From NCBI GenBank assembly GCA_947589075.1, contig CANQBS010000001.1:1-64000 (forward strand): a DNA stretch of 64,000 nt, read 5' to 3'. Position numbers and translations under genes: made by a program. Origin of the DNA: an uncultured Acetatifactor sp. GTDB taxonomy: Bacteria > Bacillota > Clostridia > Lachnospirales > Lachnospiraceae. Positions 17,756 through 43,478 of the stretch are shown here, in pieces; within the stretch, counting starts at the first letter, position 1, and each line of letters begins with the position of its first letter. The notes below the pieces were generated by a model. It made no database searches. It saw only the letters and a program-made list of their open reading frames with translations, and was not told the DNA's origin.

Positions 17756-17998
17756 AAAACTAGAAAGAACCCAGAGTCAGGGGATGCGGACATTTTCCTG
17801 GACTGCTCATACGACCAGGCCGAGACTTTGTCGGTACTCCCAAGGGCTCATATTTCGATTGCGATTACGGATAAGGTAGGATATTCCGCAGATTTTAACA
17901 ATATATGGGACACAAAGCTGAGGCTGCCATATCTGTTTGTCCTGAGTGGACAAAATATGTTTGATCCAGATATCTTCATGGGAGCGAGGGTTATTTAA
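17756..17998 (+). pseudogene. C-terminal remnant of an unrecognised gene
   Basis: An 80-codon open stretch with no start codon or ribosome binding site. It ends in a TAA that overlaps the ATG of the next gene (TAATG). The predicted residues (for example ITDKVGYSADFNNIW) look protein-like, and the overlap is typical of translationally coupled genes. It therefore looks like the 3' end of a gene that once preceded the transglutaminase gene in its operon. I do not recognise the family. Confidence 0.45.
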
Positions 17999-19251
17999 TG
18001 TTTTCACAGATGACAGAGAAACAAAAAATGTACATAAAACATAAACGGAAAGGTATTTTTATTTTTTTATCTCTTTTGTTCATGTTAGCCTTGGGCTTTA
18101 TTGGAGTAAAGGTATCTTCTTATCTTAACCGTCCCAGAGTAAAGGAGATGGTAACAGTGGAAGTTGGCAGTGCATTACCGGATATTTCCTTATTCCTGCT
18201 GGAGCAGGAGGACGCCTTTTTTTCGATTCCTTTGGAAGAAATCGTAAATATGAATGAATTGTCGGATTATGAAGTAGCAGTTACTGTGGGAGGGAAGGAA
18301 TATATTTCCGTTTTACATCTTGTGGATACGACTGCTCCGGAAGTAGAAGTTCGGGAGACCGAGATCTATACGGATGAGGAACTGAATCTGGAGGATTTGA
18401 TTCTCCGGATTGATGACTGTACAGAAACAAAGTCTGCTTTTGCCTGTCCTGTAAGGCTTGCTGCTGCCGGAATTTATTATATTCCTATAGTAGTCACTGA
18501 TTTGGGAGGAAATTCAGTCTGGGTTTGGGCGAAGGTTCATGTGTTGAAAGACATGGAGCCCCCTGTCATTACTGGGGTTCAGGAACTATCCATAAAAGCC
18601 GGAGAAAACATTTCCTATAAAAGGGGTGTAAAAGTTTCTGACAATCATGATCAGAATGTGAAACTGGAAATAGATAACAGTACGGTGAACCTTAACAAGG
18701 TGGGGGATTATCAGATTGTTTACAGTGCGGAAGATAATGCGGGGAATAGGACGGAGATCCCAACAGTCCTTCATATTCTGGAGCCGGGGGTGGAAGGGGC
18801 AACTGAGGAGATCGTAAATGCTGAGGCGGACGCGATATTGGCGGAGATTACTACAGAAGATATGACTCAGTATGAAGTTGCAAAAGCTATCTTTGACTGG
18901 ATTTATAATAATATAAAAAATACAAACGTCGCCCCGAAAACCACATGGGTAGAAGGCGCTTATAGAGGGCTTTTTGAACGTAAAGGGGACTGCTTTGTAT
19001 ATGCTATGACATCGAAATGTCTTTTGACAAGAGCGGGCATTCCTAATATGGATATAGGATTTAAGAATCCTAACAGAATGCATTATTGGAACCTGATTGA
19101 TTTAGGGGAAGGCTGGTATCATTGGGATGTTACAAAAAGAATAAACGGAGACTGCTTTTTTTATGTGTCGGATGACGTAATCAGGGCATATTCAAGCATT
19201 CATAATGGAAGTCATGCTTATGATCCTTCTAAATATCCAGAAATACAATAA
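17998..19251 (+). CDS. Membrane-anchored transglutaminase-like protein with Ig-like repeats (cluster A)
   Basis: 417 aa. An N-terminal membrane helix is followed by two or three beta-sandwich repeats of the DUF5011/HYR type (VDTTAPEVEV, DMEPPVITG, YSAEDNAGN) and a C-terminal transglutaminase-like domain. The triad is visible: Cys about 332 in GDCFVYA, His about 362 in MHYWNLID, Asp about 377 in WYHWDVT. The domain should face outside the cell. Such domains act as proteases, amidases or cross-linkers, so the reaction is not certain. It opens a tight operon with the carrier protein, MBOAT, asparagine synthetase, SGNH-like protein and lipoprotein. It is a close relative of the protein encoded at 35564. 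Confidence 0.82.
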   Translation: MFSQMTEKQKMYIKHKRKGIFIFLSLLFMLALGFIGVKVSSYLNRPRVKEMVTVEVGSALPDISLFLLEQEDAFFSIPLEEIVNMNELSDYEVAVTVGGKEYISVLHLVDTTAPEVEVRETEIYTDEELNLEDLILRIDDCTETKSAFACPVRLAAAGIYYIPIVVTDLGGNSVWVWAKVHVLKDMEPPVITGVQELSIKAGENISYKRGVKVSDNHDQNVKLEIDNSTVNLNKVGDYQIVYSAEDNAGNRTEIPTVLHILEPGVEGATEEIVNAEADAILAEITTEDMTQYEVAKAIFDWIYNNIKNTNVAPKTTWVEGAYRGLFERKGDCFVYAMTSKCLLTRAGIPNMDIGFKNPNRMHYWNLIDLGEGWYHWDVTKRINGDCFFYVSDDVIRAYSSIHNGSHAYDPSKYPEIQ

Positions 19252-19270
19252 GAAAAAAGGAGTAGAAAAG

Positions 19271-19498
19271 ATGGACAGATTATTGAAAATTTTAAGGGAG
19301 TTACATCCTGAAGTGGACTTTGAGACAGAGGAGCATTTGATTGATGGAATGATCCTGGATTCCTATGATATCGTAGCATTGATCACAGAGATCCAGGATG
19401 AATTTGATGTGACAATTGATGCAAGAAAGATTCTTCCCCAGAATTTTAATTCTGCGAAAGCCCTTTATGCACTGATTCAGGAGATGGAAGGAATTTGA
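19271..19498 (+). CDS. DltC-like (acyl/aminoacyl) carrier protein (cluster A)
   Basis: 75 aa, a four-helix carrier protein. The phosphopantetheine-accepting Ser is about residue 31 in ILDSYDIV. The start is the ATG with AAAGGAG eight bases upstream. It lies between the transglutaminase-like gene (19 bp) and the MBOAT gene (10 bp). Together with an MBOAT it resembles DltC-DltB, where the carrier delivers a thioester-bound D-alanine to the membrane protein. The cargo here is unknown, and no adenylating ligase lies in this cluster; the one at 38051 could serve it. Its paralogue at 42204 is nearly the same length and shares most core residues. Confidence 0.88.
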   Translation: MDRLLKILRELHPEVDFETEEHLIDGMILDSYDIVALITEIQDEFDVTIDARKILPQNFNSAKALYALIQEMEGI

Positions 19499-19508
19499 GG
19501 TTTCAGTC

Positions 19509-21101
19509 ATGCTTTTTACGACATACGAATTCATGGGGTTTTTCCTGATTTTACTCATAATATACTATTCGATTCCCAGCGGTTGCCAATGGTTGCTTTT
19601 GCTCATAGGAAGTTACTGGTTCTATTATAAGGCTGATCCCAGATATATATTGTATTTGGCGGTCATCACCTCACTGACCTATTTAGGTGCCAGGATTATT
19701 GAAAGAAATCAGATGCTTCAAAAGAAATATCTGGAAAAACTGGGTGCTGAACTAGGGAATGAGGAAAAGAAGAAATACAGAAAGAAACAGGAACAAATTA
19801 GACGCTTTTGGTTCGTTTCCTTTTTGGCAGCAACTCTGGGGATCCTGGCAATCGCTAAGTACACGAATTTTTTGATTCAAAATATCAATCATGTTCTGGA
19901 TTTTTTGGGAAGGACAGAACAGATATCTCTTATAGATCTGCTCCTTCCGCTTGGGATTTCTTTTTATACATTTCAGGCGGTGGGATATTTAATAGACGTA
20001 TATTGGGAAAATATTTCTGCAGAGCATAATTTTTTACGCTATGCCTTATTTGTTTCTTTTTTCCCGCAGCTGATTCAGGGACCTATCAGCAGGTTTGGAG
20101 ATCTATCTCAGACCCTGGGGAAAAAGCACAGACTGCATTGGGAAAATATCCGTGATGGGATGGGGCGTATGCTGTGGGGATATTTCAAGAAAATGGTGGT
20201 GGCAGACAGGATTGCCCCAGCAGTTCATTTGATGACGGGAAATCCGGATCTTTATCAGGGCGGTTATATTCTGGTATTGATGGTTTTGTATACGGTAGAG
20301 CTTTATGCGGATTTTACAGGAGGTATCGATATCACTATAGGAATTGCACAGACCTTTGGGATAGAAATAAAGGAAAATTTCAGATGCCCTTATTTTTCAA
20401 CTTCTCTGAGAGAATATTGGCGAAGGTGGCATATTTCCATGTGCACCTGGTTTAAGGATTATGTTTTTTATCCCATTTCCGCATCATCTATCATGCAGAA
20501 ACTCTATAAAAAAGCAAAAAAACGGGTTGGTGCAAAGGCAGGGAAACGTCTGCCTATCCATCTTTCCTCCTTTGTTGTCTGGCTTGCTACAGGAATCTGG
20601 CATGGAGCAAGCTGGAATTTTGTCGTATGGGGGCTTTTAAACTGGATAGTCCTGACCGTTTCGGAAGAACTGGAACCGATGTACAGAAGATTTCATCTTT
20701 GTGTGAAGTTTACGGATAAATGGGGGTATAAATTGTTTCAGATTGTAAGGACTTTCCTTCTGATCTGTGTCTTGAATCTATTTGACTGCTATGAGGCGGT
20801 CGCTACTACCCTTCGTATGCTCGGATCGGTAATTATAGGGGGAAACTGGAACATTTGGAATAATGGAGGATTGATGGAACTTGGACTTGGTATGTCAGAT
20901 TTCTGTGTTTTGTTAATCGGAGTATTGCTCATGATCGGCGTGAGTTTTGTGCAGCAGAAGGGAAGTGTAAGGGAGAAGCTTGCAGGAAGATCTTATCCGG
21001 TACAGGTGGCGGTTTGGTTCGGTTTATTTCTGACCGTGATCTTATGGGGAAAATACGGGATTGGCTACGATGCCAGTCAGTTTATCTACAATCGTTTTTA
21101 G
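19509..21101 (+). CDS. MBOAT-family membrane O-acyltransferase (DltB/AlgI-like, cluster A)
   Basis: 530 aa with many membrane helices. The active-site His is about residue 365 in GIWHGASWNFVVWG, and the block EYWRRWHISMCTWFKDYVF is typical of AlgI/DltB proteins. At this length it is closer to AlgI/PatA-type proteins than to the shorter classic DltB. It should take the group carried by the carrier protein and move it across the membrane or attach it to a hydroxyl of a surface molecule. Its paralogue at 39605 has its His at the same position. It is translationally close to the carrier protein gene. Confidence 0.88.
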   Translation: MLFTTYEFMGFFLILLIIYYSIPSGCQWLLLLIGSYWFYYKADPRYILYLAVITSLTYLGARIIERNQMLQKKYLEKLGAELGNEEKKKYRKKQEQIRRFWFVSFLAATLGILAIAKYTNFLIQNINHVLDFLGRTEQISLIDLLLPLGISFYTFQAVGYLIDVYWENISAEHNFLRYALFVSFFPQLIQGPISRFGDLSQTLGKKHRLHWENIRDGMGRMLWGYFKKMVVADRIAPAVHLMTGNPDLYQGGYILVLMVLYTVELYADFTGGIDITIGIAQTFGIEIKENFRCPYFSTSLREYWRRWHISMCTWFKDYVFYPISASSIMQKLYKKAKKRVGAKAGKRLPIHLSSFVVWLATGIWHGASWNFVVWGLLNWIVLTVSEELEPMYRRFHLCVKFTDKWGYKLFQIVRTFLLICVLNLFDCYEAVATTLRMLGSVIIGGNWNIWNNGGLMELGLGMSDFCVLLIGVLLMIGVSFVQQKGSVREKLAGRSYPVQVAVWFGLFLTVILWGKYGIGYDASQFIYNRF

Positions 21102-21155
21102 CTGGAAACGGTTTGCCTTCAGCGGCAACTTTCAGTAGTGGAGGAGAGACCGAAA

Positions 21156-22994
21156 ATGTGTGGAATTTGCGGTATCTATAATTTGAAAAACAGACACAGG
21201 ATCGACGGAAAAATATTGGATGCCATGATGAGCGCAATCAGACATAGGGGACCGGATCAAAGTGACAGCAGTGTTCTTTCCTGTATTGCATTAGGGTTCA
21301 ATCGGCTTAGTTTCCTGGATCTGAAAGGCGGCATGCAGCCCTTGTGGAATGAAGATAAAACCATTGTCATGATATGCAATGGAGAGATTTTTAATTATAA
21401 GGAATTGAAGCGAGAGCTTGTGGGTAAGGGGCATGTTTTTTCAACGGAGACGGATGTGGAAGTGATTCTCCATTTATATGAGGAAGAGAAGGAAGGATTT
21501 CCAAAATATTTAAATGGACAGTTTGCAATAGCGCTTTACGATGATAGAAAAAAACAGTTATTTCTGGTTCGGGATCAGATGGGTATTTGTCCGTTGTTTT
21601 ATACTGTATTTGATGGAAGGATTCTATTTGCCTCAGAGGTTAAAGCAATACTGGAATATCCGGGACTGGAGCGCAGACTGAATTTAAAAGCTGTTGACCA
21701 GCTGATGAATTTTCCTGGGGCAGTTGCTCCGCAGACTTTTTTCCGCGGGATATATGCTCTTGAGGCGGGACATATGTTGAGAGCGGCAGAAGGTTCGGGA
21801 ATACAGAATCAGGAATACTGGGACTTGATTTATCAGCCGGAAGAAAAGGATTTGGGAGAAGAGTATTACATTGAGAGACTCCATGAATTGCTAGAGAAAG
21901 CTATTAAGCGGAGATTAGTGGCCGACGTCCCGATTGGGTTCTATATTTCCGGAGGTTTGGACAGCTCGGTGGTAGCCTGTTATATCGGCAAATATCTGCT
22001 GAATAGTTTTTATTCTTTTTCCGCAGAGATAGGGGACGGGGAACTGAATGAAAGCCGCTTCCAGAAAATGGTGAGGGATTGTGTTCATTCAGAGCATCGC
22101 TGCATCAGGATTTCCGAGGAAGAGATATGGAAGCATTTGGAAAGGGTTGTATACCATGCGGAGTCAGGGCTGAAAGAAAGTTATGATGTCGCGGCATATC
22201 TGTTATCGGGGCTCGTGCATGCTTCTCCCGCTAAGGCAGTTCTTACCGGGCAGGGATCGGATGAGTTCTTTTATGGTTATGTTGGATATATGGTAGATAT
22301 GTTCCGTAATATGCAAAAAGAACTGATGTCTCCCGAAGAATGTGCCTGCAATGAAAAATTGTGGGGGGATCCGTACTTCCGTTATGAAAGAAACCATCCG
22401 GAGATCCGAAAGATACATCGTAAGGTTTACAGCGAAAGAATACGCGATGAAATAGATGATTTTTCCGCCATATGGAAAAGTCCGGTAAATACTGATCGTT
22501 TAAAGGGATTGAGCCCGCAAAAGCGAAGGTCATATATAGATTATAAGCTTCGTCTTTCGGATCATTTGTTGGGAGAACATGGTGACAGAATGTTTTTTTC
22601 CCATTCAGTTGAAGGCAGGCACCCTTTCTTAGATATGGAATTGTTGGATTTTATCGTCGGTATTCCAGATCATTATAAATTGAAGGGAATCAATGAAAAA
22701 TATATTCTGAAAAAAGCGGCAGAGGGAATTGTTCCGGAAGAAATTCTGAAACGAAAAAAATTTCCTTTTCAGGCTCCCGGCATGTCAGCTTTAATAAAAA
22801 AGGCTGCAAGGGTTCCATATCTCGAGCCGGAGCTGATAAAAAAATATGATGTATTTGATGTGAAATATATGGAAGAATTGAAAAAAATTTATGCGCAGGA
22901 TGATTTTAAGCTGATGGGTGCGTATGAGATAGATTATTTGTTGATCATTATGACAGTAACAATGTTGTGTGATCAATATTCCCTTTCTATCTGA
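21156..22994 (+). CDS. asnB: Glutamine-hydrolysing asparagine synthetase (cluster A)
   Basis: 612 aa. The start is the ATG at 21156, which places the glutaminase nucleophile Cys at position 2 (MCGICGIYN), with GGAGGAGA seven bases upstream. The second half carries the PP-loop SGGLDSSVV near residue 265. It would make asparagine from aspartate using glutamine amide nitrogen and ATP, or amidate another carboxylate. Relatives often sit in surface-polysaccharide and peptide-modification clusters. Its place between MBOAT and SGNH-like genes suggests that it makes or amidates the group being transferred, but this is inferred. Confidence 0.88.
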   Translation: MCGICGIYNLKNRHRIDGKILDAMMSAIRHRGPDQSDSSVLSCIALGFNRLSFLDLKGGMQPLWNEDKTIVMICNGEIFNYKELKRELVGKGHVFSTETDVEVILHLYEEEKEGFPKYLNGQFAIALYDDRKKQLFLVRDQMGICPLFYTVFDGRILFASEVKAILEYPGLERRLNLKAVDQLMNFPGAVAPQTFFRGIYALEAGHMLRAAEGSGIQNQEYWDLIYQPEEKDLGEEYYIERLHELLEKAIKRRLVADVPIGFYISGGLDSSVVACYIGKYLLNSFYSFSAEIGDGELNESRFQKMVRDCVHSEHRCIRISEEEIWKHLERVVYHAESGLKESYDVAAYLLSGLVHASPAKAVLTGQGSDEFFYGYVGYMVDMFRNMQKELMSPEECACNEKLWGDPYFRYERNHPEIRKIHRKVYSERIRDEIDDFSAIWKSPVNTDRLKGLSPQKRRSYIDYKLRLSDHLLGEHGDRMFFSHSVEGRHPFLDMELLDFIVGIPDHYKLKGINEKYILKKAAEGIVPEEILKRKKFPFQAPGMSALIKKAARVPYLEPELIKKYDVFDVKYMEELKKIYAQDDFKLMGAYEIDYLLIIMTVTMLCDQYSLSI

Positions 22995-23023
22995 GTTTAT
23001 TATCCGAATATAGAGGTTAGGAA

Positions 23024-24064
23024 ATGTATAAAAAGCGTATCAGGTATGCCGTCACGGTTTTTTTCACCGCAGGTATTTTGCTCTTTATATTGTTTGGAGT
23101 GCAGCGTTTATTGATGCCTAAATATGTGGGAAGCGACCTGGAAGGAAGTATGCTGGAGGAATATTATAGAGAGGTTAAAGATCACAATGTCGTTTTTTTC
23201 GGGGATTGTGAAGTATATAATAATTTCTCGCCGGCCGTACTATGGGAAGAATATGGGATTAATAGTTATATACGGGGAAGTGCGGAGCAATTAATCTGGC
23301 AGTCCTATTATATTATGGAAGAAACTTTTTCTTATGAGAAGCCTGAAGTGGCAGTATTTAATGTTTTGTCGATGATGACGGATGAACCTCAAAAGGAAAG
23401 TTATAATCGTATGACACTGGACGGGTTAAGGTGGTCGCCTGCAAAAATAAAATGCATACAGGCATCTATGACAGAGGGTGAGCACTTCTTGGAATATTTA
23501 TTTCCCATTCTCCGATATCATGACAGATGGGATCAATTAACATATGAGGATTTCCGATTCTTTTTTGGGAAAAATCCGGTGACTTTTAATGGATATTATA
23601 TGAGGACAGATATATTGCCTGCCGAAAATATTCCGAAGAAGCGGCCTTTGATAAATTATCAGTTTGGAGAGAGAGCGTATGCTTATCTGGATAAGATGGT
23701 GGATCTTTGCAGACAAAATAATGTGGAGCTGGTACTGATCAAGGCTCCCAGCCTATATCCATTCTGGTATGAACAGTGGGAAGAGCAGATCGTGAAATAT
23801 GCTGGGGAACATCAGCTTAAGTATTATAATTTTTTAAATGCGGCGGAGCAGATTGGCTTAGATTATTCGGCGGACACTTATGATGCAGGTCTTCATTTGA
23901 ACCTGACCGGGGCGGAAAAGCTTTCTCGATATTTCGGACAGATTCTTATAGATGAGTGCGGTATTTCAGATCGCAGGGATGAAGAAGATTTGGCAGCAAG
24001 GTGGGAAATAAAGCTGGAACGTTATTATAAGGAAATTGATCGTCAAAAGGAGATAAAGGAATGA
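23024..24064 (+). CDS. SGNH/DltD-like membrane-anchored protein with Cys at the nucleophile position (cluster A)
   Basis: 346 aa. An N-terminal membrane helix precedes an SGNH-like extracellular domain. Block I reads VVFFGDCEVYNNFSP, with Cys about residue 62 where DltD and other SGNH enzymes have Ser. The late block DAGLHLNLTGAEK supplies Asp about 287 and His about 291. DltD-like proteins act outside the membrane together with the MBOAT protein in transferring the aminoacyl group. The same Cys is kept in the paralogue at 42441. The gene overlaps the following lipoprotein gene by four bases. Confidence 0.78.
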   Translation: MYKKRIRYAVTVFFTAGILLFILFGVQRLLMPKYVGSDLEGSMLEEYYREVKDHNVVFFGDCEVYNNFSPAVLWEEYGINSYIRGSAEQLIWQSYYIMEETFSYEKPEVAVFNVLSMMTDEPQKESYNRMTLDGLRWSPAKIKCIQASMTEGEHFLEYLFPILRYHDRWDQLTYEDFRFFFGKNPVTFNGYYMRTDILPAENIPKKRPLINYQFGERAYAYLDKMVDLCRQNNVELVLIKAPSLYPFWYEQWEEQIVKYAGEHQLKYYNFLNAAEQIGLDYSADTYDAGLHLNLTGAEKLSRYFGQILIDECGISDRRDEEDLAARWEIKLERYYKEIDRQKEIKE

Positions 24065-24714
24065 TTATGAGAAAAAGCTTTTTATTTGTTGTGATGGCAG
24101 GTATTGCATTATGCGCCTGCGGCTGTGGATCTGATGAAGCAGGAAAGGTTTCGGAACAGAATTCATTTCAGGAGGCGGAGGATACTGAGTTGCAGAATAT
24201 ATTATTGGGCTCGGAGAGCACCAATCTAAAAGATATTGAAACAAAAACCTCTGACCCAGGACTCCTTGGGGCAGAAGCTGGGCAAGGAGGTGAATCAGAA
24301 GATGGCGGGAAGGGCTTCTTATTTCCGGCCGGGGATATTCTGATCGGTGTAGATATGGATATGAACGAGATTATTGATGAACTGGGGGAATATCAAAGTG
24401 TCTACAGTTCTCCTAGTTGTGCCGGGGATGGAATCAGTTATGTTTATGATTACGGTTCCTATGAAATAGAAACTTATCCTGCGGAGGATGGGAAAGATCG
24501 TATCGCATATATCCTGCTGCGGGATGATATGGTATCGACGCAGGAAGGAATTGACTTGTCCATGGACAGAGAAAGCATCATCAGCACATATGGCTCAGAT
24601 TACATTGAAAACGGAGACAGCCTTACCTATGAGAAGGATGGAGCAAAGTTGAATTTCATTTTTGAAAATGGCGAGTTTCTATCTATCGAATATGCATCTT
24701 CGGTGCTTGGGTAA
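24061..24714 (+). CDS. Lipoprotein of the dlt-like clusters (cluster A copy)
   Basis: 217 aa with a lipoprotein signal peptide (lipobox around ALCACGCGS), an acidic linker and a C-terminal globular domain of about 120 residues. The domain is related to that of the lipoprotein at 41516: both share a Cys near the middle (SCAGDGISYVYDYGSYEIETYP against SCAFEGLDKMYTY in the other) and end in (L/V)SIEY. The family function is unknown to me. It overlaps the SGNH-like gene (ATGA), so the two are translated together. An acceptor, chaperone or sensor role at the outer face of the membrane is possible. Confidence 0.75.
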   Translation: MIMRKSFLFVVMAGIALCACGCGSDEAGKVSEQNSFQEAEDTELQNILLGSESTNLKDIETKTSDPGLLGAEAGQGGESEDGGKGFLFPAGDILIGVDMDMNEIIDELGEYQSVYSSPSCAGDGISYVYDYGSYEIETYPAEDGKDRIAYILLRDDMVSTQEGIDLSMDRESIISTYGSDYIENGDSLTYEKDGAKLNFIFENGEFLSIEYASSVLG

Positions 24715-24765
24715 GTATAGTAAAGGGAGCAGAATATAAAGAAAAAATAAAAAAATGCGCAATCC

Positions 24766-25002
24766 TCATAGGCGTGGTTCGGTTGAGGTAGAAGCTACGT
24801 TTATACTGTCAATTGCGGTTTTGAGCGTTGGAATCTGATGTGTCAAGGCAAGGATATGCCCGCAGGCAGGGCAGTAACACTGAGAGGTAATAAGGGGCAG
24901 ATTGTTTCGGATACGGTAATCTGCGGTGGTAAAATAGGCGCCAACGATACCTCCAAACAGCAGTGTACATAGAAAAAGTAGAAGTTCAGAAAACAGTGTC
25001 AT
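24766..25002 (-). pseudogene. Prepilin peptidase N-terminal fragment
   Basis: Up to 78 codons. An N-terminal membrane helix (LLLFLCTLLFGGIVGAYF) is followed by YCPACGHILALTHQIP, the zinc-binding N-terminal block of type IV prepilin peptidases (normally two CxxC pairs; one is visible). The catalytic membrane part is absent and the reading frame runs into unrelated sequence. It is probably a truncated relic; a small functional membrane protein cannot be ruled out. Confidence 0.5.
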
Positions 25003-25259
25003 GACAACGGCTCCTTAAGATATTTTGTATTTTTCATTTCGAGGAAAAGCGTGTTCCTCATAGCAGGATTCTAATAATACTATTGTACATCTTAGAAGCA
25101 TCCGCTTCAAGGGGAAAAGCAGAAAGAACATATTTTTTTATAAATGACGAAAAATGAAACCCGTTGGTATAAGGTAATAAAGGTTAAATAATTCATAAAC
25201 CAAAAATCATCGGAACTACTATATATGATGGAGTAATACAATGTTTAAAGGAGGTACCC

Positions 25260-26258: not shown

Positions 26259-26347
26259 ACTGCTGCGGGAAGGGCAGGACTTCGTTTAAAATGAAATAAT
26301 AAATACAGTTCCGAGGATGTCGTTTTAAGAAGATTGTGAGGTGCAAT

Positions 26348-32687: not shown

Positions 32688-32708
32688 GTCGATGATGGGA
32701 GAAAAACT

Positions 32709-33395: not shown

Positions 33396-33415
33396 ATTTG
33401 CCGTCGATGAATTTA

Positions 33416-33444
33416 TTGCCCGAACCCGAAAAGTATGGTATACT
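33416..33444 (+). promoter_or_regulatory. Promoter of the GT-C-like gene
   Basis: TTGCCC at 33416-33421 and TATACT at 33439-33444 with a 17-bp spacer, starting 21 bases after the end of the truncated TPR/LRR copy. Confidence 0.65.
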
Positions 33445-33525
33445 TTGTGAATCATGAAGAAGAGAATCTGACGAATTCATGTTCATGACGAGTTTATGTT
33501 CAGTTTTCTCGAAGGAGAAACAGGG

Positions 33526-35106: not shown

Positions 35107-35151
35107 GGATTTTTGGGGACTGCTACATACATCCCTAATATAAACCTGTTT
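35103..35151 (+). terminator. Possible terminator after the GT-C-like gene
   Basis: An 8-bp stem TTAGGGAT (35103-35110, containing the stop codon) with ATCCCTAA (35131-35138), followed after ten bases by T5. The distance to the T-run makes it weak. The remaining bases up to 35430 are AT-rich and hold nothing that I can support as a gene. Confidence 0.35.
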
Positions 35152-35435
35152 TTGTACTTCCTCATTTTGTCCTCCATTCCAGAGCGTTACAACCTATCAT
35201 CCGGATTCGGTAAAGAAATTCTAGCATTCCTGTTTATAAAAGTCAATCACGTCCGGAGTATCCGTCCTATTATGTATTTAGAAAAAGTGAATTCAAAAGT
35301 AAAAAATATATTTTATATTATCAATCATTAGAAGTAGATTATCTTAACATTATTAAAAAAGATGCTACTTTGATACAATCTCACTATAATATTCTATCTT
35401 AATAATTTGCGTATAATTTGCTGCGCGATATAAAG

Positions 35436-35563: not shown

Positions 35564-37189
35564 ATGAAGAGAAGAAGGCGCAGAAGGCGGAGAAACAAAA
35601 GATTGTCCAGGATCCTGGTCCTGTATCTGCTGTTGATACTGGTGGGCGGTATCGGGGGATGGCTTTTTATCGATGGCCTTGCTTATAAAACCTGCCGCGT
35701 GGAGGCGGGCGGAACTGTGACCGCATCGGATTTTATCAAAAGCGGCGATGAGGAGGCATATTTTACCCAGGACAGCGCTCCTTTTGACACTTCTGTGCCG
35801 GGAGAATACCCAGTTAAGGTCAGAAGCGGTTATTTTACTCATAAAGCTACCCTGATCGTTCAGGATACGATCCCTCCCAAGGCAGTCCCCAGGACTGCGC
35901 GGATCGCCATAGGCGCCGCCTGTGATCCCCGGGAACTGGTAACGGATATTGAGGATGCCACCCAGGTCAGCGTATATTTTGAAAGCAAGCCGGATTACAG
36001 CATTCGGGGAAGCCAGACAGTCAAGGTCCTTCTTGTAGATGCAGAAGGAAATTGTACCAGTGTGAAATCGGAACTCATTATTTCTCAGGTGGTGGGAGAT
36101 CTTTATAGAGAAGTGGGAAGCCCTCTGCCGGGGCTTTCGGATTTTGTGGTGGAGGCGCAGACAAGCAGCTTCCAGACGGATATTTCCGCCATTGATATGA
36201 ATAAAATAGGGGACTATGAGGTGAATATACTGGCGGACGGCTATGAAGGCACTGCCATGCTTCATGTGGTGGATACCACGCCTCCCACAGGTCAGGCCGT
36301 TAATGTCAGCGGATATCTGCTGGCGCCCCATAGCCCCGAGGAATTTGTGACAAATGTGTCTGACGCCACTCAGGTGAGCTTTTCCTGGCAGCAGGAGCCG
36401 GATCTGACGAAGGAAGGCACCCAGGATGTGAGAATCGTCCTTACAGATGAAGGCGGGAATGAAACGGCGATTACGGCGCAGCTCACTCTGAAGGAGGATA
36501 CTGAGCCTCCCGTCATCACAGGCACCCGGGATATTGAGATCCTGACGGGAGAGGGCATTTCCTACAGGAGAGGCGTGGAGGTGACGGATAACTGTCCGGA
36601 AGGTCTGGAGCTGACAGTGGACAGCAGCAATGTGAATTCCGATGTGGAAGGGGTCTACGAGGCGGTCTACCAGGCGAAGGATCTGGCGGGGAACACCGCT
36701 ACGGCCAGGATCACTGTAACGGTCCATGCCAGAAAGTATTCCGAGGAAGAGATCAATAAGCTGGCGGATGCGGTTCTGGAGGATATCTTCAAACCGGACA
36801 TGACCCTGTTGGATAAGGTGGAGGCTATTTATAACTATAATCTTACGCATATTTCCTATATCAGTCATTCGGATAAGGGTGACTGGACCCAGGCCGCTTA
36901 TGAAGGGCTGGTGAACCACGCGGGAGACTGCTTCGTCTATGCCAGCACCGCAAAGGTGCTTCTTACCAGGGCGGGCATCACCAATATGGACATTGCCAAG
37001 ATCCCGGCTGAAACCTCCCATTACTGGAACCTGGTGGATATCGGGGATGGCTGGTATCATCTGGATACCACGCCCAGGAAGGATCATCCCAGGATCTTCA
37101 TGTGGACGGACGAACAGCTGATGGACTATTCCGAGAAGCACAAGAAGTCTCATAATTATGACCATTCCCTGTATCCGGAAGTGAACTGA
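35564..37189 (+). CDS. Membrane-anchored transglutaminase-like protein with Ig-like repeats (cluster B)
   Basis: 541 aa. A very basic N-terminus (RRRRRRRNKR) and a membrane helix precede several DUF5011/HYR-type repeats (VQDTIPPKAV, VVDTTPPTGQ, DTEPPVITGT) and a transglutaminase-like domain with Cys about 456 in GDCFVYAS, His about 486 in SHYWNLVD and Asp in WYHLDTTP. It is the longer relative of the protein at 17998, sharing LLTRAGI(T/P)NMDI near the active site. It leads cluster B. Proteolysis, cross-linking or amide transfer at the surface are all possible. Confidence 0.82.
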   Translation: MKRRRRRRRRNKRLSRILVLYLLLILVGGIGGWLFIDGLAYKTCRVEAGGTVTASDFIKSGDEEAYFTQDSAPFDTSVPGEYPVKVRSGYFTHKATLIVQDTIPPKAVPRTARIAIGAACDPRELVTDIEDATQVSVYFESKPDYSIRGSQTVKVLLVDAEGNCTSVKSELIISQVVGDLYREVGSPLPGLSDFVVEAQTSSFQTDISAIDMNKIGDYEVNILADGYEGTAMLHVVDTTPPTGQAVNVSGYLLAPHSPEEFVTNVSDATQVSFSWQQEPDLTKEGTQDVRIVLTDEGGNETAITAQLTLKEDTEPPVITGTRDIEILTGEGISYRRGVEVTDNCPEGLELTVDSSNVNSDVEGVYEAVYQAKDLAGNTATARITVTVHARKYSEEEINKLADAVLEDIFKPDMTLLDKVEAIYNYNLTHISYISHSDKGDWTQAAYEGLVNHAGDCFVYASTAKVLLTRAGITNMDIAKIPAETSHYWNLVDIGDGWYHLDTTPRKDHPRIFMWTDEQLMDYSEKHKKSHNYDHSLYPEVN

Positions 37190-37214
37190 CGTGAGGGAAG
37201 GGGGGAAGAACCGT

Positions 37215-38036
37215 ATGAAGGGCGAGAGAACGGGTGAGAATAGAGAAAAAACAGGCGAGAATATAGAAAAAACAGGCGAAAACAGGAAAATTCTGGGCGT
37301 TATAGGAGGTCTGGGACCCATGGCCACCGCGTATTTTCTGCAGCTTGTGACCCAGATGAGCGATGCGGTCACGGATCAGGAGCATATCGAGGTGCTGATC
37401 CATAGCAAGCCCCAGATCCCGGACCGGACCCGTTTTATCCTGGGCAAAAGTACCGAGAGTCCCTTGCCCGATATGCTGAAGGTCGGCAGGCAGCTGACAG
37501 GCCTTGGAGCCCAGGTTCTGGCGATTCCCTGCATCACAGCTCATTTTTTCCAGGGCGTTTTGGAAAAAGAGATTGGGGTTCCGGTGATCAACGCCATCGT
37601 GGAGACTGCGGAGTATCTGCGGCAGGAGGGAATTGTCCGGGCAGGGCTTATGGCTACAGACGGAACGGTCCAGAGCAGATTGTTTCAGGATACCTTTGCC
37701 CCCTACGGGATAGAAGTGGTCACGCCGGATGAAGAGAATCAGGCGAAGGTCATGCACCTGATCTACCGGAACGTCAAGGCGGGGGTAAAGCCGGAAATGG
37801 AGCTTTTAAGTCAGGTGAGAAAGCAGCTGTCCCATGAGGGAGCCCAGGTGCTATTGCTGGCCTGCACGGAGCTTTCCGTGATCAAAAGGGATTTCGCCCT
37901 GGAGCCGGAATACTTGGACGTGCTGGAGGTGCTTGCCAGGAAAGCGGTGCTGGAGTGCGGAACCCTCAAGGAGGAGTACAGAAGGCTGCTTCCTGAGCCG
38001 GGTTTAGCAGGGAAGAAAATAGAGAGTAAGGGATAA
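37215..38036 (+). CDS. Aspartate/glutamate racemase family protein (cluster B)
   Basis: 273 aa. The fold begins at KILGVIGGLGPMATAYF. The two catalytic Cys are in PCITAHFF and LACTELSV, the pattern of the Asp/Glu racemase family. It would interconvert the L- and D-forms of an acidic amino acid, or a related one, without a cofactor. About 22 extra N-terminal residues are a repeat of TGENxEK. The ATG at 37215 follows GAAGGGGGG; a GTG at 37191 is less likely. It lies directly upstream of the adenylating ligase, which suggests that it supplies a D-amino acid to it. Confidence 0.8.
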   Translation: MKGERTGENREKTGENIEKTGENRKILGVIGGLGPMATAYFLQLVTQMSDAVTDQEHIEVLIHSKPQIPDRTRFILGKSTESPLPDMLKVGRQLTGLGAQVLAIPCITAHFFQGVLEKEIGVPVINAIVETAEYLRQEGIVRAGLMATDGTVQSRLFQDTFAPYGIEVVTPDEENQAKVMHLIYRNVKAGVKPEMELLSQVRKQLSHEGAQVLLLACTELSVIKRDFALEPEYLDVLEVLARKAVLECGTLKEEYRRLLPEPGLAGKKIESKG

Positions 38037-38050: not shown

Positions 38051-39568
38051 ATGCAGAACCATGTACTGGATTATTTGGAAAATATTGTAAAGCTGAAGCC
38101 TGACAAGCTGGCTTTTGTGGACGATAGGGAGGCTCTGACCTTCAGGCAGGTTCGGGAATACTGCCGCAGCATCGGCACTTTTCTCCATCAAAAGGGGGTC
38201 TGCCGTCAGCCGGTGGTGGTTTTTATGAACAAGCATCCCAAGGAGATCGCAGCCTTCTTTGGAGTGATCGCCGGGGGTGATTTTTATGTGCCCATCGACG
38301 AGGAAATGCCTGCCGGCAGGATCGAGCTGATCCTGCAGAATGTGAAGCCCCGGGTGCTGATCTGCGATGAGGAAACCAGGGGAAAGGCGGAGAACTTTCA
38401 TACAGAGGGAGAGATCGTGCTGTTCGACGAGATCGCCCGAACCCCTGCGGACGAAGAAGCTCTCCGTGCCATATATGATAAAACCATCGATACCGACCCC
38501 ATTTATATTGTATTTACCTCCGGCTCCACGGGAGTACCCAAGGGGGTGGCGGCGTGCCACCGCTCTGTGCTGGACTATATCGAGCAGCTTTCCGAGGTGC
38601 TGGAATTTAATGAAGATACGGTATTCGGCAACCAGACGCCCCTTTATTTTGACGCCTGTCTGAAGGAGCTGTATCCCACCCTGAAATTCGGAGCCACCAC
38701 CTACCTGATCCCCAGAGAACATTTCCTTTTCCCGGTGAAGCTGGTGGAATATCTGAACGAGCACCGCATCAATACCATTTGCTGGGTGGTGTCGGCGCTG
38801 ACCATGATATCGGCCTTTGGAACCTTCCGCACCGTGAAGCCCCAGTATCTGCGGACTGTGGCCTTTGGAAGCGAGGTATTCCCCATCAAACAGTTTAACC
38901 GTTGGAGGGAGGCGCTGCCGGAGGCGAAGTTCGTCAATCTCTACGGACCCACAGAAGGAACGGGCATGTGCTGTTATTATAAGGTGAATCGGGAGTTTGC
39001 CCCCAATGAAGTGATCCCTATCGGGCGCCCTTTTAAAAATACGGATATCATTCTGCTCAATGAGCGCAATGAGCGGGCGGCGGAGGGAGAAGAGGGAGAG
39101 ATCTGTATCAGGGGAACCTCCGTTACCTTGGGCTATTACCATAACTTTGAGAAAACCAGGGAGGTTTATGTGCAGAATCCGCTGAACAACGCCTACCCTG
39201 AACTGATCTACAGGACCGGGGATCTGGGCCGCTATAATGAATACGGCGAGCTGGTCTTCGCTTCCAGAAAGGATTATCAGATCAAGCATATGGGACACCG
39301 CATCGAGCTGGGAGAGATCGAGGTCAATGTCAATATGCTGGAGGGCGTGAAGATCGCGGGCTGCATTTATGATAACGGAAAGGGACGCATCGTCCTGTAT
39401 TATGTGGGGGATGTGGATGAAAAGGAAATGGCCACTGCCCTGAAGGACAAGCTGCCCCGGTATATGATCCCCAATCATATTATCCGTCTGGAGCAGATGC
39501 CCTTTACCCCCAACGGCAAGATCGACCGGGTGACTCTGCGCAGCCGGTACGCCGCCGGAGAGAAGTAG
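38051..39568 (+). CDS. DltA-like amino-acid adenylating ligase (cluster B)
   Basis: 505 aa, the length of DltA. Core motifs of the adenylation family are present: VFTSGSTGVPKG (A3), FDACLKELYP (A4), NLYGPTEGT (A5), YRTGDLGRY (A7/A8) and PNGKIDR with the catalytic Lys (A10). The Asp in A4 is the residue that binds an alpha-amino group, so an amino acid is the likely substrate. It would activate the acid with ATP and load it on the carrier protein at 42204 or 19271. Which amino acid is unknown; the racemase next door hints at D-Asp, D-Glu or a derivative. Confidence 0.83.
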   Translation: MQNHVLDYLENIVKLKPDKLAFVDDREALTFRQVREYCRSIGTFLHQKGVCRQPVVVFMNKHPKEIAAFFGVIAGGDFYVPIDEEMPAGRIELILQNVKPRVLICDEETRGKAENFHTEGEIVLFDEIARTPADEEALRAIYDKTIDTDPIYIVFTSGSTGVPKGVAACHRSVLDYIEQLSEVLEFNEDTVFGNQTPLYFDACLKELYPTLKFGATTYLIPREHFLFPVKLVEYLNEHRINTICWVVSALTMISAFGTFRTVKPQYLRTVAFGSEVFPIKQFNRWREALPEAKFVNLYGPTEGTGMCCYYKVNREFAPNEVIPIGRPFKNTDIILLNERNERAAEGEEGEICIRGTSVTLGYYHNFEKTREVYVQNPLNNAYPELIYRTGDLGRYNEYGELVFASRKDYQIKHMGHRIELGEIEVNVNMLEGVKIAGCIYDNGKGRIVLYYVGDVDEKEMATALKDKLPRYMIPNHIIRLEQMPFTPNGKIDRVTLRSRYAAGEK

Positions 39569-39604: not shown

Positions 39605-41200
39605 ATGCTTTTTACTTCCTATGAATTTCTTGGCTTTCTATTGATTTTGTTCCTGCTGTACTATCTGGTGCCGGTAAGGTTCCAGTGGAAGCTGCTTCTG
39701 CTTGCCAGCTATCTGTTTTATTTTCTGGCAAGCCCGATCTACGTGATCTATATTTTCACCACGACGGTGACGATCTATCTCGCCGCCTGTAAGATCGGCA
39801 GGATCTCAGAGGAGCAGAGCGCCTATCTGAAGGAGCATAAGGCGGAGCTGTCCAAGGAGGAAAAAAAGGATTATAAGGCCGGAATGAAGAAACGCCAGTG
39901 GCATTTCCTGCTGGCAGGGCTTTTATTCAACCTGGGAATCCTGGCGGTGGTAAAGTATACGAACTTTGCCATCAGCAACATCAACGGGCTTCTAAAGCTC
40001 TTCGGCAGTCCGGGACAGCTGGACTTCTGGGATATTGCCCTTCCCATGGGAATCTCCTTTTACACCTTTCAGTCCCTGGGATATCTCATCGACGTTTACA
40101 GGGGCGTTGTGCCTGCGGAGAAGAATCCCTTCAAGCTTGCCCTTTTCATCTCCTTCTTCCCCCAGCTGGTTCAGGGTCCCATCAGCCGGTTTGGGGATCT
40201 GTCCAAAAGCCTGTTTGCGGAACACCCCTTCCGGGGAGAGACTGTGGTCAGAGGACTTCAGAGGATTTTGTGGGGCTTCTTTAAAAAGCTGGTGATCGCC
40301 GACAGGATCCTGGTCGGAGTGAATACCATCATCAGGGGTTCCGACCAGTACGCCGGCGCCTATGTATTCCTGGGGATGCTGTTCTACGCCCTGGAGCTTT
40401 ATGCGGACTTTACCGGAGGCATCGATATCACCATCGGCGTGGCCGAAACCATGGGGATTACTGTGAAGGAGAATTTCCTGCAGCCCTATTTTTCCAAATC
40501 CATCAAGGAGTACTGGAGAAGATGGCACATTACCATGGGAACCTGGTTTACGGATTATATTTTTTATCCCATATCCGTGTGTAAGCCCATGCTGAAATTT
40601 TCCCGGTTTTCCCGTTCAAAGTTCGGGGATGCCATAGGAAAGAGGCTGCCGGTGTATCTTTCTTCTTTTGCGGTGTGGTTCGCTACGGGCATCTGGCACG
40701 GCGCCAGCTGGAATTTCATTGTATGGGGTCTGGGCAACTGGGTGGTGATCATGATCTCCCAGGAACTGGAACCGCTGTATGAACGCTTTCATGCCCGGTG
40801 GAAGGTGAAGGATAAATTCTTTTTCCGGCTGTTCCAGGTGATCAGGACGATCCTTCTGATGAGCTGTCTGCGGATGTTTGACTGCTATCGGGACGTTCCC
40901 CTGACATTTAAAATGTTCGGCAGCATGTTCACCCGCTGGAACTGGAATGTGCTCTGGAACGGATCTTTGTTGAACCTGGGGTTATCTGCCCTGGATTACG
41001 GGATTCTGGCAGCGGGTCTGGTGCTGCTGATCACAGTGAGCCTGCTTCAGGTGAAAAAAGGGAGCGTCCGCAGTCTGATCGCGGCAAGGCCCTATCCCGT
41101 CAGGTTTGTGATCTGGTTCGGCCTGTTCCTCATCGTCCTGCTGATGGGCGCATATGGGATCGGCTATGATGAGAGCCAGTTCATATATAATCAATTTTAG
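39605..41200 (+). CDS. MBOAT-family membrane O-acyltransferase (DltB/AlgI-like, cluster B)
   Basis: 531 aa, paralogue of the protein at 19509 over its whole length (start MLFTSYEFLGF against MLFTTYEFMGF, end GYDESQFIYNQF against GYDASQFIYNRF). The active-site His is about residue 365 in GIWHGASWNFIVWG. It lies 36 bp after the ligase gene. It should accept the loaded group from the carrier protein and pass it to an outer acceptor. It is longer than classical DltB. Confidence 0.88.
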   Translation: MLFTSYEFLGFLLILFLLYYLVPVRFQWKLLLLASYLFYFLASPIYVIYIFTTTVTIYLAACKIGRISEEQSAYLKEHKAELSKEEKKDYKAGMKKRQWHFLLAGLLFNLGILAVVKYTNFAISNINGLLKLFGSPGQLDFWDIALPMGISFYTFQSLGYLIDVYRGVVPAEKNPFKLALFISFFPQLVQGPISRFGDLSKSLFAEHPFRGETVVRGLQRILWGFFKKLVIADRILVGVNTIIRGSDQYAGAYVFLGMLFYALELYADFTGGIDITIGVAETMGITVKENFLQPYFSKSIKEYWRRWHITMGTWFTDYIFYPISVCKPMLKFSRFSRSKFGDAIGKRLPVYLSSFAVWFATGIWHGASWNFIVWGLGNWVVIMISQELEPLYERFHARWKVKDKFFFRLFQVIRTILLMSCLRMFDCYRDVPLTFKMFGSMFTRWNWNVLWNGSLLNLGLSALDYGILAAGLVLLITVSLLQVKKGSVRSLIAARPYPVRFVIWFGLFLIVLLMGAYGIGYDESQFIYNQF

Positions 41201-41213
41201 TGAAAAAATATCA

Positions 41214-41382: not shown

Positions 41383-41518
41383 AGAAATGACAAGAGAAGT
41401 GTCAAGAGAAATGACAAGAGAAGTGTCAAGAGAAATAACAAGAGAAATGGCAGGAGGAATATCAGGAGAAATGACAAGAGAAATAACAGGAGGAGTATCA
41501 AGAGGAATGACAGGAATG
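41383..41518 (+). repeat. 12-bp tandem repeat carrying a ladder of in-frame start codons
   Basis: About eleven units close to AGAAATGACAAG run into the lipoprotein gene. In its frame, possible starts lie at 41387, 41399, 41411, 41423, 41447, 41471, 41507 and 41516, each preceded by a purine-rich AGAG or AGGAG run. Because 12 is a multiple of 3, unit gain or loss keeps the frame. Confidence 0.85.
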
Positions 41519-42115
41519 TCAAAAGGAAGGAAGACTGCGGCGGCGCTGCTGGCTTTGGTTACGATCATGGCCTTATTGGCAGGCTGCGGCAGTTCGGAGA
41601 ACAACATTGGAAGCGGGGCAAAGGATCAGATTGCCTCAGGCAGTCAGTCCGGTTCCGGGAACCAGGGAAGTTCCGGCACAGAGAATCAGGGGGGACAGAA
41701 CGGGACTCAGAAGGGTTATGTATTTACTTATAAGGATGTGACCATCAGCATGGACGCGGAAGCCGCTCCTCTGGTGGCTGCCCTGGGAGAGCCCAACTCT
41801 TATTTTGAGGCTGCAAGCTGTGCCTTCGAGGGACTGGATAAGATGTATACCTACAGCGGTTTTGAACTGGATACCTATCCCACGGGGGACAAGGATTTTG
41901 TTTCTGCCGTGGTTTTAAAGGATGATTCCGTGGCGACGCCGGAGGGCGTTGTGATCGGGGATTCCAAGTCGAAGCTGGAAAGCGTTTACGGGACGGCCTC
42001 CAGCACCACAGATACGCTGGCGGTTTATGAGAAGGATGGGATGGAGCTGCGTTTTATCTTAAGCGGAGACAGCATTGTATCCATAGAATATATGTCCGGG
42101 GCGGCGCTTCAGTAA
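41516..42115 (+). CDS. Lipoprotein of the dlt-like clusters (cluster B copy)
   Basis: 199 aa from the ATG at 41516. The signal peptide MSKGRKTAAALLALVTIMA ends in the lipobox LLAGC, followed by a Gly/Ser/Gln-rich linker and a globular domain related to that of the protein at 24061. The start is chosen because lipoprotein signals have short N-terminal regions; starts further up the 12-bp repeat would add up to 43 residues of TREV/SREM repeats. The ATG at 41507 is equally possible. The function is unknown, but the gene type is shared by both clusters. Confidence 0.75.
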   Translation: MSKGRKTAAALLALVTIMALLAGCGSSENNIGSGAKDQIASGSQSGSGNQGSSGTENQGGQNGTQKGYVFTYKDVTISMDAEAAPLVAALGEPNSYFEAASCAFEGLDKMYTYSGFELDTYPTGDKDFVSAVVLKDDSVATPEGVVIGDSKSKLESVYGTASSTTDTLAVYEKDGMELRFILSGDSIVSIEYMSGAALQ

Positions 42116-42203
42116 AAACCCTCTTGTATTTTACAGGGAAAGGGTTTAGAATGGTTTCAATCAATAGCGGTGGAGGCGATACCGCAGGAAAGGAATTGAT
42201 ACG

Positions 42204-42434
42204 ATGGAAGATTTATTGGAAATTTTAAGCTCCCTGCATCCGGAAGTAGATTTTGAGACCTGTGATACCCTGGTGGATGACAAGATTTTGGATTCCTTTG
42301 ATATTGTGTCCATTATCTCGGAGATCGAGGATCAGTTTGACGTTGTGATTTCCGCCGAGAAGATCACCCCCCAGAATTTTAACTCCGCAGAGGCGCTGTA
42401 CGCCTTGATTCAGGACTTGGAGGATGAGGACTAA
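42204..42434 (+). CDS. DltC-like carrier protein (cluster B)
   Basis: 76 aa. The phosphopantetheine Ser is about residue 31 in ILDSFDIV. It is a clear paralogue of the carrier at 19271: both begin with a helix ending LHPEVDFET and end with PQNFNSAxALYALIQ. GGAAAGGAATT precedes the ATG. It should carry the product of the ligase at 38051 and deliver it to the MBOAT at 39605. The SGNH-like gene begins seven bases after its stop. Confidence 0.88.
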   Translation: MEDLLEILSSLHPEVDFETCDTLVDDKILDSFDIVSIISEIEDQFDVVISAEKITPQNFNSAEALYALIQDLEDED

Positions 42435-42440
42435 GAAATT

Positions 42441-43478
42441 GTGAAGAGTAAAAAAACCTTGAAGGTGATAGTTTCTGCTATCATTGTTTTCGTGTGTCTG
42501 TTTTTGCTGCAAAGGCTATTGATGCCGAAATATGTGTCGGATATCGTGGAAGGCTCCATGATCGCAGAGTACTATCGGGAAGAGATGGATCATGATGTGG
42601 TCTTTATCGGGGATTGTGAGGTTTATGAAAATTTTTCCCCGAAGGTGCTCTGGGAGGAATATGGCATCAACAGCTATATCCGGGGCAGCGCCCAGCAGCT
42701 GATCTGGCAGTCCTATTATCTGCTGGAGGATACCCTGCGTTATGAGAAGCCTCAGGTGGTGATCTTCAATGTGCTGTCCATGCAGTACAATGAGCCCCAG
42801 AGGGAAGCCTATAACCGGATGACCCTGGAGGGCATGAAGTGGTCCGGAGCCAAGGTGAAGGCCATTCTGGCTTCCATGACGGAGGAAGAGAATTTCTTGG
42901 ATTATGTGTTTCCGATCCTGAGGTATCATTCCCGGTGGAGCGAACTGAAGGGGGAAGACCTGGAGTATCTGTTCAAGCCCCACCAGGTGTCCCACAACGG
43001 ATATTATATGAGGGTGGACGTAAAGCCTGCGGAGAACGTGCCGGAGGGAAAGGTTCTGGCGGATTACAGCTTCGGGGAAAACGCCTATGATTATCTGGAC
43101 AGGTTTACAAAGCTTTGCAAGGAGAATGATATTCAGCTGATCCTCATTAAGGCTCCCAGCCTTTATCCCTACTGGTACGACGAGTGGGAAGCCCAGATGG
43201 AGGAATATGCGGCGGGAAACAATCTTCTGTATATCAACTTCCTGGAACTGGTGGAGGAGACCGGGCTGGATTTCAGCACGGACACCTATGATGGGGGTCT
43301 GCACCTGAATCTGTCGGGAGCGGAAAAGGTCTCCAGATACCTGGGTAAGGTGCTGCAGGAGGAGGGAGTGCCGGATCGGAGGGGCGAGGAAGCTCTGGAG
43401 AAGATCTGGCAGGAAAAGGCAGCGCTTTACGAGCAGGAGAAGGAAGAGCAGTATCTTGCTCTGGAGGCGGAGAGATAG
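42441..43478 (+). CDS. SGNH/DltD-like membrane-anchored protein with Cys at the nucleophile position (cluster B)
   Basis: 345 aa, paralogue of the protein at 23024. A membrane helix near the N-terminus is followed by VVFIGDCEVYENFSP with Cys about residue 59 in the nucleophile position, and by DGGLHLNLSGAEK with Asp about 284 and His about 288. The GTG start lies seven bases after the carrier protein stop. It should act outside the membrane with the MBOAT protein, as DltD does with DltB. At 345 aa it is shorter than typical DltD (about 400 aa). Confidence 0.78.
   Translation: MKSKKTLKVIVSAIIVFVCLFLLQRLLMPKYVSDIVEGSMIAEYYREEMDHDVVFIGDCEVYENFSPKVLWEEYGINSYIRGSAQQLIWQSYYLLEDTLRYEKPQVVIFNVLSMQYNEPQREAYNRMTLEGMKWSGAKVKAILASMTEEENFLDYVFPILRYHSRWSELKGEDLEYLFKPHQVSHNGYYMRVDVKPAENVPEGKVLADYSFGENAYDYLDRFTKLCKENDIQLILIKAPSLYPYWYDEWEAQMEEYAAGNNLLYINFLELVEETGLDFSTDTYDGGLHLNLSGAEKVSRYLGKVLQEEGVPDRRGEEALEKIWQEKAALYEQEKEEQYLALEAER

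Follow-up and report, generated by a model that had tools for sequence, protein, structure and literature searches.

D-alanine makes the surface of Gram-positive bacteria less negative. In the systems covered by the accessible parts of PMC12148441 and PMC9487903, an MBOAT protein and an SGNH protein together move acetyl or D-alanyl groups by way of tyrosine and serine esters; in PatA and DltX the acyl group sits on the tyrosine of an FxYxxF motif (accessible part of PMC12148441), and serine is the nucleophile in a review of SGNH proteins (accessible part of PMC9487903). We analyzed a stretch of 64,000 nucleotides from an uncultured Acetatifactor sp. of the Lachnospiraceae (contig CANQBS010000001.1, positions 1 to 64,000; hereafter, the window), in which an initial annotation had described two dlt-like clusters, here called A and B.

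We consider it fairly probable that these clusters represent a Dlt-like, carrier-dependent MBOAT-SGNH acyl-export operon, by which an acidic amino acid, D-aspartate being the likeliest, is taken from the cytoplasm to the surface. This reading was drawn from gene content, the conservation of catalytic residues, a basic ligase pocket, an acyl-shuttle motif and a serine-to-cysteine change; it supports, at the level of sequence, the initial proposal that an amino-acid-derived group is moved outward, and what we say of the acceptor, the bond, the chemistry and the roles of the transglutaminase-like protein and the lipoprotein is conditional. D-aspartate would be produced by the racemase, and the ligase would adenylate it and load it onto the phosphopantetheine arm of the carrier. 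In the asparagine-synthetase type, represented by cluster A, the side chain would be amidated after activation, giving asparagine. The MBOAT would then move the aminoacyl group onto the tyrosine of its own FIYNxF tail, from which Cys59 of the SGNH protein (serine in DltD and PatB) would accept it as a thioester and hand it to a surface acceptor. The lipoprotein, with its conserved cysteine, and the transglutaminase-like protein would act outside, at or after the SGNH step.

Open reading frames and translations confirmed both clusters and their five shared gene types, with all 13 genes on the + strand. Cluster A (17998-24714) has the order transglutaminase-Ig, carrier, MBOAT, asparagine synthetase, SGNH, lipoprotein:

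17998..19251, + strand: membrane-anchored Ig/transglutaminase-like protein P0001 (PF01841, Transglut_core, 36.7 bits, curated Pfam cut-off 23; PF16403 40.6 bits; Cys, His and Asp kept)
19271..19498, + strand: DltC-like carrier P0002 (frame opens at 19205, likely start 19271; PF00550 22.4 bits, cut-off 20.8; Ser of the LDS motif kept; 67% identical to the cluster B carrier)
19509..21101, + strand: MBOAT P0003 (PF03062 67.0 bits, cut-off 27; C-terminal acyl-shuttle motif FIYNRF)
21138..22994, + strand: glutamine-dependent asparagine synthetase P0004 (TIGR01536 430.6 bits, cut-off 267.1; Pfam Asn_synthase 220.2, cut-off 21)
23024..24064, + strand: SGNH/DltD-like protein P0005 (GDC replaces GDS; 59% identical to P0013)
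24061..24714, + strand: lipoprotein P0006 (conserved cysteine of an SCA motif, from the alignment)

Cluster B (35564-43478) has the order transglutaminase-Ig, racemase, ligase, MBOAT, lipoprotein, carrier, SGNH:

35564..37189, + strand: Ig/transglutaminase-like protein P0007 (PF01841 37.3 bits, cut-off 23; catalytic residues present)
37191..38036, + strand: aspartate-type racemase P0008 (TIGR00035 199.3 bits, cut-off 93.1; CuyB model 204.8, cut-off 190; Pfam Asp_Glu_race 116, cut-off 31; two catalytic-type Cys)
38051..39568, + strand: DltA-like amino-acid:carrier ligase P0009 (TIGR01733 324.8 bits, cut-off 317.4; Pfam AMP-binding 225.5, cut-off 29.9; pocket code DAKWAGLGMK)
39605..41200, + strand: MBOAT P0010 (PF03062 46.6 bits, cut-off 27; ends FIYNQF)
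41516..42115, + strand: lipoprotein (frame opens at 41219, likely start 41516; predicted YjgB/BLIP-like fold, model pLDDT 83.4; conserved C102)
42204..42434, + strand: carrier P0012 (PF00550 20.0 bits, just under the cut-off of 20.8; Ser kept in 75/75 relatives)
42441..43478, + strand: SGNH/DltD-like protein P0013 (Cys59 at the nucleophile position, D284/H288; model pLDDT 90.6, SGNH fold)

The lipoproteins had no Pfam match at E 1, the SGNH proteins scored 21.5 and 22.2 bits (PF13472 cut-off 32.9) and the carriers matched weakly, so that paralogy, motif conservation and structure prediction were the basis for these three assignments. The paralogy of the A/B pairs that had been noticed from the sequence was borne out for all five of them by blastp, with identities of 39% (transglutaminase), 67% (carrier), 54% (MBOAT), 59% (SGNH) and 35% (lipoprotein), each at E ≤3e-24.

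The annotation had proposed looking for co-occurrence of the core genes in other genomes, and we found it. The cluster B SGNH protein was searched against 150 genomes of the family, 81 of which had some match and 25 a close one (at least 341 bits). A scan of named genomes with the SGNH alignment gave at least 583 relatives in 595 stretches, from which the best 80 loci were kept; these were fetched by the SGNH protein alone, many end at contig edges, and 43 of them were complete, having at least 8.9 kb on either side. Profiles matched an MBOAT in 78 of the 80 loci, a carrier in 72, a ligase in 70, the lipoprotein in 69, the transglutaminase in 65, the racemase in 57 and the asparagine synthetase in 18. 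Rather than the five genes first taken as the core, seven (transglutaminase-Ig, racemase, DltA-like ligase, carrier, MBOAT, SGNH and lipoprotein) were present together in 34 of the 43 complete loci, always on a single strand (34/34) and within 6.8-9.8 kb. The racemase and ligase, regarded initially as additions to cluster B, thus belong to the core, and it is cluster A that is without both of them; the asparagine synthetase, correctly assigned to cluster A, is optional in the operon (9 of the 43 complete loci). The repeated grouping of these genes across many other genomes shows that their association is not a matter of chance.

Flanking genes were not conserved (447 flanking proteins, the largest family in 7 of the 80 loci), so the seven-gene operon looks autonomous, and linked polysaccharide or acceptor genes were dropped as a clue to the target. 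Sixteen loci fetched with more distant SGNH relatives contained a carrier in 6, a ligase in 6, an MBOAT in 14 and an asparagine synthetase in 2, and no transglutaminase, lipoprotein or racemase of the same families was found in these 16. At the level of whole genomes, a lipoprotein match of at least 46 bits (weaker matches, mostly to the signal-peptide part, were excluded from this count) was present in 25/25 genomes with a close SGNH protein and, among the matches listed, in at least 6 of the other 125 (Fisher p 4e-23); in G002, G016 and G111 it was on another contig than the SGNH gene. The operon is carried by gut and rumen Lachnospiraceae and related Clostridia, and in a phylum-wide draw of 299 genomes only 3 besides the window's own matched the SGNH alignment at E 1e-40. 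For most of the conservation counts given below a length floor was applied, which left 68 of 71 ligase matches (69 with the window's own), 71 lipoprotein matches, 67 of 68 transglutaminases, 56 of 57 racemases and 79 of 81 MBOATs.

The lipoprotein is fast-evolving (mean identity 30%), and S101, C102, Y111, T141 and E143 were invariant in 68 aligned rows. C102, which is extracytoplasmic and distinct from the lipobox cysteine C24, was thus present in 68/68 rows of the alignment, and in 69/71 of the length-floor set. The predicted fold is YjgB-like, with a weaker likeness to BLIP and BamE; a search of solved structures gave a single match at E 0.085 for the lipoprotein profile and none at E 0.01 for the transglutaminase-like protein. 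Of 67 rows of the latter, the catalytic-type Cys was kept in 66, the His in 66 and the Asp in 67. In the Pseudobutyrivibrio loci L143 (from P. ruminis DSM 9787), L152, L158 and L163, the SGNH protein has kept its cysteine and the stretches searched gave no lipoprotein. The lipoprotein family also stands beside an MBOAT and an AlgX-type SGNH protein, without a carrier or ligase, in L170, L171, L174 and L176; in all of these except L176, a transglutaminase-core protein follows or precedes. The pair is thus a module able to serve different acyl systems, and the case for its handling the aminoacyl group itself is the weaker for it. In stretches without an MBOAT, the lipoprotein cysteine was absent in L172 and L173 and kept in L167, L168 and L169.

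It is a real possibility, if short of an even chance, that the lipoprotein acts on the transglutaminase-like enzyme, as its inhibitor (in the way BLIP inhibits beta-lactamase) or its partner, and stands outside acyl transfer, with the pair trimming or removing the modification. Such a role would be compatible with the first five steps of our scheme; it is favoured by the predicted fold and by the adjacency of the two genes beside the AlgX-type transferase in L170, L171 and L174. Against it is the conserved cysteine, for which an inhibitor pure and simple would have no need.

Among the export and transfer proteins, the carrier serine was present in 75/75 relatives, the MBOAT histidine in 78/79 at each of two sites, and FxYxxF (as FIY..F) stood at the MBOAT C-terminus in 77/78 relatives, the exception, L095, being split into two frames. 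The model of the cluster B SGNH protein matched the folds of SGNH esterases, TesA, DltD and PatB. Its alignment with TesA begins at residue 50 to TesA residue 1, so that, if ungapped, Cys59 would fall on TesA Ser10, which we take to be the catalytic serine. Block I reads GDC, and cysteine occupied the nucleophile position in 80/81 rows, the lone other row being a second, distant SGNH protein of L150; in the first set of rows, cysteine was found in 25 of 26 clade members, L066 having serine, and serine in 20/20 of the outgroup, and the Asp-His pair was kept. As a cysteine replaces the catalytic serine, we regard the system as a variant rather than an orthodox member of the MBOAT-SGNH kind. Cys226 was rejected as a second catalytic thiol: it is invariant in the clade and also present in 16/20 outgroup rows, which suggests that it is probably structural.

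The replacement of serine by cysteine in engineered subtilisin favours aminolysis. A sub-case of our reading, somewhat unlikely on present evidence, is therefore that the SGNH cysteine makes an aminolysing transferase, which would form an amide with an amine of a protein or of peptidoglycan, and not a glycopolymer ester. The clade-specific change of serine to cysteine, with Asp-His retained, argues for this idea; against it stand the lack of a linked acceptor gene, the retention of serine in the SGNH protein of L066 and the esters formed by the MBOAT-SGNH systems in the accessible parts of PMC12148441 and PMC9487903. If the bond were an amide, the release of amino acids by mild base, which the initial annotation had suggested measuring, would give a false negative. 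Extending this further, and with little confidence, we can imagine a thiol relay from the phosphopantetheine thiol to the MBOAT tyrosine, the SGNH cysteine and possibly the lipoprotein cysteine, ending in an amide, such that surface proteins or peptidoglycan would receive D-Asp or D-Asn in amide linkage outside the cytoplasm, to be processed or cross-linked there by the transglutaminase-like protein. Among the matches listed in our literature searches, whose scope left most subscription papers outside, neither an extracellular aminoacyl-amide pathway nor a system of this kind was named.

The identity of the amino acid was approached through the ligase and racemase. Ten pocket positions of the ligases were read from motif anchors, with an alignment to LgrA guiding 278-301; the position names follow the nonribosomal peptide synthetase literature. 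The code DAKWAGLGMK was found in 58 of 69 aligned ligases, and position 239 was basic in 69/69 (Lys in 66, Arg in 3), which would fit a side-chain carboxylate and thus an acidic amino acid. The racemase has 1jfl, an aspartate racemase, as its nearest solved relative (174.7 bits), passed TIGR00035, and has both catalytic-type cysteines in 56/56 rows. We conclude from these comparisons that an acidic amino acid is most likely the substrate, with D-Asp (D-Asn in the asparagine-synthetase type) favoured over Glu. Lys239 was kept in the ligases of asparagine-synthetase loci (15/15, and also in L046 and L053), suggesting that amidation should follow activation. The substrate of P0004 itself is assigned from its match to the asparagine synthase equivalog. 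A precedent for amidation after activation is AsnH of L. lactis, which amidates D-Asp after ligation (accessible part of PMC4155827).

We think it unlikely that the same machine instead handles D- or L-glutamate, amidated to glutamine, although its glutamine amide would be a natural substrate for a transglutaminase. The basic residue 239 would suit glutamate as well, and Lys also occupies this position in the surfactin glutamate code, DAKDLGVVDK, a string that our literature search did not find in print; the presence of a transglutaminase-core protein in 43/43 complete loci likewise speaks for it. However, the racemase is closest to aspartate racemases among solved proteins and scored 18.2 bits with the MurI model (cut-off 146.65), a separate MurI is already encoded elsewhere in the genome, TIGR01536 is an asparagine synthetase model, and the transglutaminase is present also where the asparagine synthetase is absent. 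Acidic pocket codes were looked for in the accessible part of PMC10212144, and none was found there.

That the clusters are an ordinary Dlt operon, diverged in sequence and still D-alanylating teichoic acid, is highly improbable: carrier, ligase, MBOAT and SGNH do share a single operon as in dltABCD, and DltA and DltB are among the top NCBIfam models, but the cluster B ligase scored 281.5 bits with the DltA model TIGR01734 (cut-off 559.85, which 4 of 7 family DltA passed and 3 fell slightly short of), its pocket code differs from those of the best DltA of the 7 family genomes with DltD (DLMSLCTVAK in 6, DLMSLCTVCK in 1; Met239 in 7/7), the racemase is not of the alanine type, other genes have no Dlt counterpart, and DltD was not found in the genome. 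The MBOATs (150.5 and 136.7 bits with the DltB model TIGR04091, cut-off 375) and the cluster B carrier (18.2 bits with the DltC model TIGR01688, cut-off 52.35) also scored below the Dlt cut-offs, in agreement with the earlier view of a system related to yet distinct from DltABCD. An ordinary dlt operon elsewhere, which the annotation had named as a possible refutation, was sought by way of DltD (PF04914), which had no match in this assembly (96% complete) and was detected in the controls Bacillus subtilis and Lactococcus lactis. The one other DltA-like ligase found in the genome belongs to a separate dlt-like cluster, whose SGNH protein is of the Ser type. Mutual exclusion between the operon and true Dlt was considered and set aside: DltD (at least 239 bits) occurred in 7 of the 150 family genomes and in 0 of the 25 with a close SGNH protein, among which about 1 would be expected by chance, and we therefore claim no exclusion.

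Several observations weigh against the export of D-aspartate by a cysteine transferase. The racemase was absent from 5 of the 43 complete loci and the lipoprotein from 4; for L113, L120, L141, L149 and L155, which have no nearby racemase, a racemase elsewhere or use of the L-form is possible. The pocket code cannot separate Asp from Glu, and Lys239 is shared by a further class of ligases (L071, L072 and L076, with no racemase found nearby, and L190, L193 and L194). A local racemase did not predict the ligase code: a hint that Val301 marked racemase-less ligases, seen in an initial set, was not borne out in the 69, since Val301 occurs in the racemase-bearing L089 and L090 and the common code in the racemase-less L113, L120, L127 and L139. 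The racemase also exceeded the cut-off of the cysteate-racemase CuyB model (NF052483), as did four relatives, a match that on sequence does not decide between aspartate and cysteate. The asparagine synthetase, besides which a search of the genome gave no other, could be a housekeeping enzyme. Finally, the serine of L066 departs from the proposed thioester, and the AlgX-type contexts suggest that the lipoprotein has a role independent of aminoacyl groups and of a cysteine in the SGNH protein. As a separate observation, the second ligase class (L071, L072, L076, L190, L193, L194) has codes near DVKWLSLCNK, and its L071, L072 and L076 members adjoin Ser-type SGNH proteins.

By blastn, the sister contig L085 aligned to the window up to 14611 and resumed at 35354, the two ends being 36 bases apart in L085, which defines the following block:

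14612..35353, no strand assigned: 20.7-kb block containing cluster A (blastn against sister contig L085)

The G+C content was 0.41 in cluster A, 0.52 in cluster B and 0.53 upstream. A 94-row MBOAT tree placed cluster B as sister to L085 and cluster A in a 28-row set that contained all 21 asparagine-synthetase rows (support 96), on a long branch that leaves its placement within the set unsure. Tandem duplication of one cluster into two is countered by this tree and by the absence of the block from L085; separate arrival or old divergence of the clusters fits better, and loss in L085 is possible. Cluster A has neither racemase nor ligase, and the DltA-like ligases found in the genome were two, that of cluster B and one in the third dlt-like cluster, so the cluster A carrier is probably charged by the cluster B ligase. 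The third cluster (L009 9899-14691, G000:C8) encodes a ligase, carrier, MBOAT and Ser-type SGNH protein. Its ligase has the code SMLWLALDIK, shared by L188, without Asp235, the residue that we take to bind the amino group; this ligase may accordingly activate a substrate other than an alpha-amino acid.

Between the clusters, within the block absent from L085 (25260-33338), are a Ser/Thr kinase with tetratricopeptide repeats (TPRs; 26336-28651), two further transglutaminase-core genes (28889-29767 and 31506-32687) and TPR-like proteins (25260-26258, 29831-31513 and 32709-33338). A protein with leucine-rich repeats and TPRs (16217-17671, G+C 0.42) lies just upstream of cluster A, and its start resembles the TPR protein at 32709-33338, near the opposite end of the block. 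Downstream of cluster B, one frame at 44317-45891 fuses a NUDIX domain and a HAD hydrolase.

Our scheme predicts a negatively charged amino acid, neutral when amidated, and a thioester at the SGNH step. If it is true, attachment of D-Asp through the alpha-carboxyl would bring in both charges, of which only the amino group would be left in the asparagine-synthetase type, and a genome with a pair of such clusters could tune the charge of its surface.

Among described systems, Dlt (DltX/A/B/C/D, teichoic acid D-alanylation) likewise has its ligase, carrier, MBOAT and SGNH genes within a single operon and shares the FxYxxF acyl shuttle, which here is on the MBOAT tail and in Dlt on DltX (accessible part of PMC12148441). 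The clusters differ from it by the basic residue of the ligase pocket, the aspartate-type racemase, the cysteine at the SGNH serine position, the additional lipoprotein and transglutaminase-like protein, and the optional asparagine synthetase. The PatA/PatB and AlgI/AlgX-type acetyltransferases share with them an MBOAT with C-terminal FxYxxF and an SGNH partner of PatB/TesA-like fold, whereas the clusters have a predicted carrier-bound aminoacyl donor and a cysteine at the nucleophile position. Lactococcus RacD-AslA-AsnH, which makes D-Asp/D-Asn peptidoglycan bridges, also combines an aspartate racemase with a ligase that activates Asp and an asparagine synthase whose amidation of D-Asp follows ligation; AslA is an ATP-grasp ligase acting on the precursor, in contrast to the predicted adenylating ligase, carrier and MBOAT export of the clusters (accessible part of PMC4155827). 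From YjgB/DUF4309 and the SCP-associated BLIP-like proteins, the lipoprotein differs by its operon context and perhaps by its SCA cysteine. Taken together, these sequence comparisons suggest that the clusters encode a Dlt/MBOAT-SGNH variant, in which the predicted substrate is an acidic amino acid and the transferase has a cysteine.

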